Made by a program: the position numbers and the translations under genes. A DNA stretch of 64,000 nucleotides, from the NCBI RefSeq assembly GCF_014489515.1, contig NZ_CP060782.1, positions 930,001 through 994,000 on the forward strand, in the 5' to 3' direction. Source of the stretch: Sphingomonas sediminicola (GTDB lineage: Bacteria > Pseudomonadota > Alphaproteobacteria > Sphingomonadales > Sphingomonadaceae). Positions 3,386 to 4,212 of this stretch are shown piece after piece. Positions within the stretch are counted from its first letter, which is position 1. The number at the start of each line of letters is the position of its first letter. Below the pieces are notes generated by a model. It did no database searches. It saw only the letters and a list, made by a program, of their open reading frames with translations, and was not told where the DNA came from.

Positions 3386-4055
3386 ATGCCTCGCCGCTGT
3401 TCCTTCAAGATCGAGCTGGATTTCCCCAGCCGCTGGCCGGCGTGGATGAGGCGGGCTGCGCGCCGCTGGCAGGGCCGGTGGTTGCGGCGGCCTGCATCCT
3501 CGACCGCAACAAATTCCCGCGCGGGATCGACGATTCCAAGAATTTGCCGCTTGAGAAGCGTGAGGCGCTCTACGCCAAGATCACCAAGGTAGCGGCGTTC
3601 GGAGTCGGCATCGCCAGCGTCGAGGAGATCGACAGCATCAATATCTACTGGGCACGCATGCTGGCGATGACCCGGGCGGTAGAGGCGCTTGGCATCGAGC
3701 CAGCCTGGGTTCTAGTCGACGGGAATGCCACGCCGAAGTGGCAGAGGCCGTCGAAGGCTATCGTCGACGGCGACGCCAAATGTCGCTCTATCGCTGCGGC
3801 ATCGATCATCGCCAAGGTCACTCGCGACCGGATGATGGCAGCTCATGCCGAGACTTATCCTGGTTACGGATGGGAGCGAAATCGCGGCTATCCGACCCCG
3901 ATCACCGTCGCGCCTTGCGTGAGCTTGGACCGACGCCGCTGCACCGCCGGAGCTTTGGCCTGGTCCGTGACATGATCGCCGCAGCCGCCCAACCGGAGCT
4001 CGAGCTTCCGGAAATCGCCGTCGCGAGTCCTTTGAGTCACACCACCACAGGTTGA
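3386..4055 (+). CDS. rnhB: Ribonuclease HII, two frame breaks
   Basis: Removes RNA from RNA-DNA hybrids and single misincorporated ribonucleotides. The catalytic start AGVDEAGCAPLAGPVV holds the conserved Asp-Glu pair, and AIVDGDAKCRSIAAASIIAKVTRD contains the later acidic residue and the conserved SIIAKVTRD helix. Two frame breaks, near 3424 (TTTCCCCAG) and near 3896-3900 (GACCCCGAT), are each repaired by one extra C, giving 223 residues. The start ATG at 3386 gives MPRRCSFKIELDFP before the catalytic core. The last codons already carry the first GANTC sites of the array that precedes ccrM, so the two genes are tightly packed. Confidence 0.9.
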
Positions 4056-4212
4056 GTCTCGTGAGTCCGGGCGGACTCAACATCTTGTGGTCGAGTCTTC
4101 GCGGACTCTCTTCGTTCCGTCGTGTCCCCAAAGCGCGTTAACCTCTGTTCGCTTGACCGCGAGTCGGGCCTGACTCACCCTTCGACGCAAAGGGGGCACA
4201 GTCGCATGAATC
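4025..4212. promoter_or_regulatory. Array of ten GANTC methylation sites in the ccrM upstream region
   Basis: GANTC occurs at 4025, 4034, 4054, 4063, 4074, 4093, 4104, 4161, 4172 and 4208 (start positions). The sites are patterned: GAGTC-N4-GAGTC direct pairs at 4025/4034 and 4054/4063, and GAGTC-N6-GACTC inverted pairs at 4063/4074, 4093/4104 and 4161/4172. Random expectation is below one site in this length. GANTC is the known recognition sequence of CcrM, encoded immediately downstream, so methylation-sensitive autoregulation is a natural inference. A TTAACC half-site (CtrA-like) lies at 4138-4143 within the array. Confidence 0.8.

Follow-up and report, generated by a model that had tools for sequence, protein, structure and literature searches.

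The 3' side of the locus is occupied by a CcrM-type DNA methyltransferase gene (ccrM, 4206..5344, plus strand), whose coding region is split by a frameshift near 5040-5050 (region 5035-5055) in this assembly. Both parts match the family model NF050803 (E 3.5e-150 for the N-terminal and 1.5e-33 for the C-terminal part), which supports the gene assignment made in the original prediction, with neither part alone reaching the cut-off of 830 bits. Of the loci that were fetched, Sphingomonas daechungensis (locus L048) has the nearest ccrM, with 97% amino-acid identity in the best segment. The window, by which we mean the whole 64-kb stretch of DNA that was analyzed, belongs to a genome of 2.76 Mb assembled as a single contig. 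The genes rnhB (3386-4055), glmM (606-2062) and glmU (5369-6726), named by eye from the list of open reading frames, are also apparently frameshifted, and the presence of several split housekeeping genes suggests sequencing errors and not gene decay.

Upstream of ccrM and at its start, GANTC sites begin at ten positions (4025, 4034, 4054, 4063, 4074, 4093, 4104, 4161, 4172 and 4208), and nine of them read GAGTC or GACTC. The tenth (4208, GAATC) is part of ATGAATC, the context of the ccrM start codon, and the nearest relative, S. daechungensis, lacks it, with ATGAAC at the same place; for these reasons we set it aside and count the array proper as nine sites in 152 bp (4025-4176). The claim that ten GANTC sites in 188 bp lie far above chance is confirmed: the densest other 188-bp stretch of the window has three sites, order-4 Markov simulations (n=60) never gave more than five per 188 bp, and the window as a whole is poorer in GANTC than its shuffled versions (160 sites versus a shuffled mean of 374). 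The two direct pairs with N4 spacing (4025/4034 and 4054/4063) and the three inverted pairs with N6 spacing (4063/4074, 4093/4104 and 4161/4172) are also found at the positions claimed for them. A 400-kb sample of the same genome contains no N4 direct pair and one N6 inverted pair, and in this sample GANTC reaches seven per 188 bp at one place and at most four elsewhere. This sole other dense cluster of the sample (L222:12683-12870, near C1:2442700) adjoins a T-loop-like GGGGATCGAATCCCG, and a search with ARAGORN found no tRNA at it. Within the window, a perfect 8-bp inverted repeat, GTGAGTCG-N8-CGACTCAC, with two GANTC sites was noticed by eye at 3335-3358, just 5' of rnhB.

The conservation of the array was assessed on 80 ccrM loci of Sphingomonadaceae taken from named genomes; L019 came without upstream DNA and was dropped, leaving 79 loci, or 80 with the window. 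All counts of layout and spacing given below for 67 loci refer to those with a clear pair of boxes (see below), the window included, whereas 13 of the 80 were left out (L041, L055, L057-L060, L062, L064, L066, L073, L074, L076 and L080), ten of them assigned by hand to a sanguinis-type group. The loci are related by descent, so these counts are not independent events. A high GANTC density in front of ccrM is conserved in Sphingomonadaceae, with a mean of 5.9 sites (range 2-9) per 260 bp 5' of ccrM in 77 family loci, compared with 0.64 further upstream and 0.23 in the ccrM coding region of these loci. Between the window and S. daechungensis, none of the 45 GANTC positions has changed versus 20 of 107 other positions (Fisher p 0.001). 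Site 1 is kept within 2 bp of its offset in 66 of the 67 loci, and sites 3 and 5 are found in 49 and 50, respectively. At their exact offsets, sites 2 and 4 occur in 13 and 8 loci; with any register allowed, the two N4 pairs occur in 17 and 4 loci, and each of the two upstream N6 pairs in 6. Since sites 1, 3, 5 and the promoter sites are common and the upstream pairs are rare, the array is, to judge from the compared loci, conserved as a set of anchored sites and not as an N4/N6 pattern. A conserved code of N4/N6 spacings was therefore rejected beyond the closest relative, the spacings being mostly lineage-specific except for the promoter pair, and the ten-site methylation counter that had been built on them is not supported.

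The inverted GAGTC/GACTC pairs had further been proposed to fold as RNA hairpins. They are complementary on paper, but the region has a folding z-score of -0.57, with 58 of 200 shuffles folding equally well, and it lies upstream of the predicted ccrM transcription start. The two main arms (4054 and 4074, sites 3 and 5) do not co-vary and are lost independently, both being present in 37 of the 67 loci where 36.6 would be expected under independence (p 0.76). Such hairpins are thus highly improbable.

The region around sites 3 and 5 resembles ACACwATATATwGTGT, which we take to be the consensus of the NrdR box, and this likeness prompted a matrix test. A palindromic matrix was learned from the regions upstream of the ribonucleotide reductase alpha gene in 30 Sphingomonadaceae genomes, with this consensus as a seed; it used 21 of the 30 loci, in which the two boxes start 32 bp (14 loci), 31 bp (six) or 33 bp (one) apart. 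The N-terminal part of the reductase gene fits best the NrdA-type alpha models (PRK09102/TIGR02506). In the window, the matrix identifies a candidate box 1, CCACCACAGGTTGAGT (4042..4057, plus strand), which also stands out in a control with masked GANTC, and a candidate box 2, ACTCAACATCTTGTGG (4075..4090, plus strand). We thus predict, with strong support at the sequence level, that the 5' half of the array is a pair of NrdR boxes of 16 bp each, with a 17-bp spacer (4058..4074) that holds site 4 at 4063, and with inner half-sites that double as CcrM sites: site 3 (4054-4058) is the inner half of box 1 plus the next C, and site 5 (4074-4078) is the preceding G plus the start of box 2. Directly 5' of box 1 is a flank of the form GAGTCyttNNNGNCACA (GAGTCttt.g.GcCACACC; 4025..4041, plus strand), which contains sites 1 and 2 and, in the alignment of the upstream regions, is one of the best-conserved blocks. 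On the other side of the pair, sites 6 and 7 lie with a partly conserved GACTCnTTnCGTTC block (4104-4118) in a zone (4093..4118, plus strand) where GACTC.TT.CGTTC is found in 17 of the 67 loci and an N6 pair in six.

The window pair scores 26.2, while the next best pair in 9 kb scores 5.6 and the maximum in 400 kb of the genome is 14.0; for comparison, the reductase pair of this genome, with a start distance of 30, reaches 27.0. With GANTC masked, the window pair still scores 22.5, and no other pair in 400 kb of the genome exceeds 13.8. The genome encodes NrdR (TIGR00244 above cut-off, C1:1429642). According to the accessible text of a study on NrdR of E. coli and other bacteria, spacers of 14-17 or 24-27 bp are tolerated and two boxes are needed for tight binding (PMC12051234), and the 17-bp spacer of the window lies inside the first of these ranges. 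The gene 3' of the candidate operator is ccrM and not a ribonucleotide reductase, the latter being the usual target of NrdR and no requirement for binding. Several other readings were discarded. Box 2 is not a genome-wide repeat, as its 13-mer CAACATCTTGTGG has a single further exact copy in the genome and three copies with one mismatch, all in coding sequence as judged by eye; the LexA, MraZ, EcfG and sigma54 readings of the conserved blocks were dropped on inspection by eye.

The same pair was searched across the family, with L070 (short) excluded from both matrix scans and from the masked control. Among 79 ccrM loci, the learned matrix places the best pair of the locus within 330 bp 5' of ccrM in 70, and a hand-picked matrix, based on 13 reductase pairs chosen by eye, all from plus-strand loci, ranks the ccrM pair first in 69. 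The nine misses of the learned matrix are L057, L059, L060, L062, L064, L066, L074, L076 and L080, and eight of them belong to the S. sanguinis/paucimobilis group, which has degenerate boxes (TTGGGG/CCCCAA). In the reciprocal direction, a matrix built from the 67 ccrM pairs finds the locus-best pair at most 500 bp 5' of the reductase gene in 24 of 30 loci. In a test on held-out reductase loci, 10 of 14 have their best pair no more than 500 bp away, with three more pairs slightly farther out at -506, -513 and -525 and one miss. The starts of the boxes at ccrM are 32 or 33 bp apart in 64 of the 67 loci, and the spacer is 15-17 bp in all 67, the scan having allowed no other lengths.

Because GAGTC itself fits the edge of the box, GANTC was masked in a control scan, in which the ccrM pair remains the best of its locus in 52 of the 79 loci and loses the first rank in 27. 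When a GAGTC-N15-GACTC arrangement was inserted by itself into 2000 random sequences, the highest score was no more than 6.4. These results bear on the idea that the sites jointly form a graded counter of methylation, through which CcrM regulates itself and which GcrA or a methylation-sensitive polymerase reads with no other factor involved. Such a counter would agree with the conserved GANTC density and with the GANTC sites in the core promoter, which are known from GcrA- and methylation-dependent promoters; however, the NrdR boxes account for the 5' half of the array and in 52 of the 79 loci remain the best pair with GANTC hidden, the N4/N6 spacings (17, 4, 6 and 6 of the 67 loci) are mostly not conserved, and we regard this explanation as unlikely. 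Still less probable, in our judgment, is that the pair is the target of DnaA or of another factor whose specificity resembles that of NrdR. In 18 of 80 loci a DnaA box, TTATCCACA, does occur between the two boxes, as this explanation would have it, but the window has none there, and the motif is shared in both directions with the reductase promoters, which are known NrdR targets.

The GANTC sites are written into the predicted boxes in a specific manner. Box 1 ends with GAGT in 50 of the 67 loci, and in 49 of these 50 a C follows just outside the box; box 2 begins with ACTC in 50 of the 67 loci, in every one of which a G precedes it, again outside the box. At position 14 of box 1, 53 of the 67 ccrM loci have A, whereas the reductase boxes prefer T (0.75) there. 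In contrast to the inner half-boxes at ccrM, the reductase boxes rarely overlap GANTC (0 of 26 boxes in the hand-picked set and 2 of 42 in the learned set, L100 and L111, at the outer edge only). Since the completing letters outside the boxes are kept, A replaces the T preferred at reductase genes, and the reductase boxes are nearly free of such overlaps, there appears to have been selection for GANTC in addition to the box, with a certain loss of fit to the NrdR consensus. On the other hand, 18 of the 67 loci lack GANTC in box 1 and 17 lack it in box 2 with the pair still present, as in L045 (CCACTATCCCTAGGGC), and in some of these loci (L045, L083) the half-box has NrdR-like letters instead. 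Being kept in only 73-75% of the loci, the GANTC sites of the boxes cannot, on these counts, be essential. Their loss from boxes that persist would suit an operator for NrdR only, in which the boxes are real, GANTC is incidental and NrdR tolerates TTGAGT. We consider this doubtful in view of the almost invariant retention of the letters that complete GANTC outside the boxes, the displacement of the preferred T by A in box 1, and the absence of any change at GANTC positions in the nearest relative, where other positions did change.

The 3' half of the array is predicted to be the ccrM promoter, with two GANTC sites between the -35 and -10 elements and, at a constant distance, a half-site that resembles that of CtrA. 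The putative core promoter (4153..4181, plus strand) is of the sigma70/GcrA type and reads TTGACC-N2-GAGTC-N6-GACTC, with TTGACC (4153-4158) as the -35 element, sites 8 and 9 (4161 and 4172) in the promoter spacer and a weak -10 element near 4176-4181. At least one promoter GANTC is found in 65 of the 67 family loci and a double one in 38 (N6 in 19, N5 in 15 and N4 in four). The half-site, GTTAACC (4137..4143, plus strand), is 16 bp 5' of the -35 element, and over the 67 loci its position is fixed: between box 2 and the -35 element, GTTAAC occurs 16 bp (34 times) or 40 bp (13 times) from TTGAC and nowhere else. The distance from box 2 to TTGAC is 76-80 bp in 61 of the 67 loci and 66-70 bp in the other six, which places the predicted NrdR pair ~78 bp before the -35 element, or about one helical turn less, throughout the family. 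The TTAA half motif is named for CtrA in the available part of one source (PMC4287350), and CtrA is described for Sphingomonadales in that of another (PMC8116508). GANTC between the -35 and -10 elements is a known layout of GcrA- and methylation-dependent promoters, as far as the accessible text of two papers goes (PMC3667746, PMC4287350), and a gene for GcrA is present in the genome (PF07750, C1:1517355); the ccrM core promoter is thus predicted to be of the GcrA type.

At the level of the class, 97 genomes had a match; upstream DNA was taken for 79 of them, and 78 regions were long enough for the pair scans. The arrangement TTGAC-GANTC-GANTC is present in 26 of the 79 class genomes, each from another family, with 0.0 expected from shuffles and none in 78 control regions, and TTGAC with at least one nearby GANTC is found in 50 of the 79 versus 2.65 expected. 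The predicted double-GANTC core promoter thus reaches far beyond Sphingomonadaceae. In Caulobacter, ccrM has a two-GANTC leader, and the locus described here resembles the Caulobacter ccrM promoter in its CtrA-like half-site and in the GANTC near the start. CtrA and SciP motifs are described for that promoter in the consulted part of PMC4287350, and methylation is said there to affect Caulobacter ccrM itself 'most probably' in the corresponding part of PMC3973325. The locus also shares the core-promoter GANTC and the presence of a GcrA gene with the Caulobacter GcrA/CcrM-dependent promoters, as presented in the available text of PMC3667746, and differs from them in having two GANTC sites 4-6 bp apart and an upstream NrdR pair, a comparison made at the sequence level only.

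The search for NrdR pairs is complicated by the neighboring rnhB. In the window, the likely rnhB frame (ORF 3738-4055) stops within box 1 (TGA 4053-4055). A frame test over the 67 loci, crude in that a false frame was chosen for the window and some others such as L048, gave 34 loci whose frame stops short of box 1 and 16 without an rnhB motif, so that box 1 is outside rnhB in 50 of 67; in the remaining loci the frame extends into or past box 1, or the frame that was chosen is false. The rnhB tail extends over the boxes in the family loci L006, L008 and L010. Among the class genomes, raw pairs scoring at least 14 were found in 17 of the 78 near regions, in none of the 78 regions 350 bp further upstream, and in one of 78 reversed regions. 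These raw counts are inflated, because the C-terminal codons of rnhB can mimic the box: 15 of 21 strong single boxes (score of at least 10) start inside the rnhB coding end. After rnhB was cut off, pairs scoring at least 14 remain in 5 of 78 regions, compared with a shuffle expectation of 0.0; of these five, L126 belongs to the window's own family, Sphingomonadaceae, and four (L140, L151, L153 and L161) to other families. Single boxes scoring at least 10 remain in 6 of 78 versus 0.65 expected, and the box of L151, ACACAATATCTTGTGT, which is outside rnhB, is nearly perfect. A gene for NrdR is present in 76 of 80 genomes; as the pairs are few, most nrdR-bearing genomes do not have such an operator at ccrM, and the predicted NrdR pairs at this gene are rare outside Sphingomonadaceae.

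An old and widespread link between NrdR and ccrM was rejected, since most strong class-level single boxes start within the rnhB coding end. A count of 14 out of 22 class-level pairs overlapping GANTC was discounted, as it came from a by-eye list that included rnhB coding matches. Just 5' of ccrM, an NrdR-like box is often formed by the C-terminal codons of rnhB, as in L146 (ACACAAGATGTTGTGT), L137, L133, L138 and L170, and these boxes are either codon mimicry or real sites that overlap coding DNA.

By combining these observations, we arrive at a view of the array that retains one part of the original interpretation, namely the conserved density of GANTC, and abandons two others, the N4/N6 counter and the RNA hairpins; the NrdR box pair of the 5' half had been missed. 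The array has less the appearance of a methylation counter standing on its own than of known types of regulatory parts placed at fixed spacing. We consider it probable that it is a composite operator-promoter, which would let the level of DNA precursors, sensed by NrdR, and the methylation state jointly set the expression of ccrM. In such a circuit, NrdR with ATP and dATP would bind the pair and lower ccrM transcription when DNA precursors accumulate, and replication would draw the precursors down and release ccrM from NrdR. By methylating the two inner GANTC sites, CcrM may alter the affinity of NrdR, in a direction that is not given by the sequence, and a fresh hemimethylated copy may be read in another way than a copy with full methylation; the GANTC sites, by their state, would signal replication of the locus. 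The core promoter would be driven or opened by GcrA and CtrA. A point against the composite operator is that the NrdR pair is located well upstream of the -35 element and not over it, as would be the case for a classic repressor. More tentatively, the pair could act as a two-key operator, in which NrdR reads dATP/ATP and the same letters read CcrM methylation, maybe also in a few other alphaproteobacterial families. Expression of ccrM would then follow both the precursor supply and the replication age of its promoter, and this would close a loop between the synthesis of DNA precursors and the epigenetic control of the cell cycle in sphingomonads.

Compared with the NrdR pairs at reductase genes, as described in the accessible part of PMC12051234, the ccrM pair is alike in having two 16-bp palindromic boxes 15-17 bp apart and is matched by the same matrix in both directions, and it differs in its target gene and in being upstream of the promoter. 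The textbook cell-cycle circuit that controls CcrM names CtrA, GcrA, DnaA and SciP in the consulted text (PMC4287350), and no nucleotide sensor of this circuit is named in the examined portions of the literature. A search that covered sources other than subscription papers, RegPrecise tables and supplements found no link between NrdR and ccrM, and none is mentioned in the available portions of PMC5343134, PMC3840689, PMC12186491 and PMC4989314; a prior prediction in RegPrecise, older subscription papers or supplements is possible. If the NrdR operator at ccrM is real, dNTP supply would feed straight into the timing of DNA methylation, and the coupling between replication and methylation would become directly testable in these bacteria. 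The phenotypes of the Caulobacter nrdR deletion are ascribed to raised dNTP levels in the available text of PMC12186491, and they would allow a second reading if Caulobacter has such boxes. A repressor box that overlaps a methylation site would also provide a clean system for asking whether a metabolite and a DNA mark can be sensed by one and the same repressor.

The family loci with a DnaA box between the two NrdR-like boxes are L030, L045, L051, L055, L057, L059, L060, L065, L066, L070-L074, L076, L080, L081 and L083, hinting at a possible DnaA input to ccrM in these lineages.
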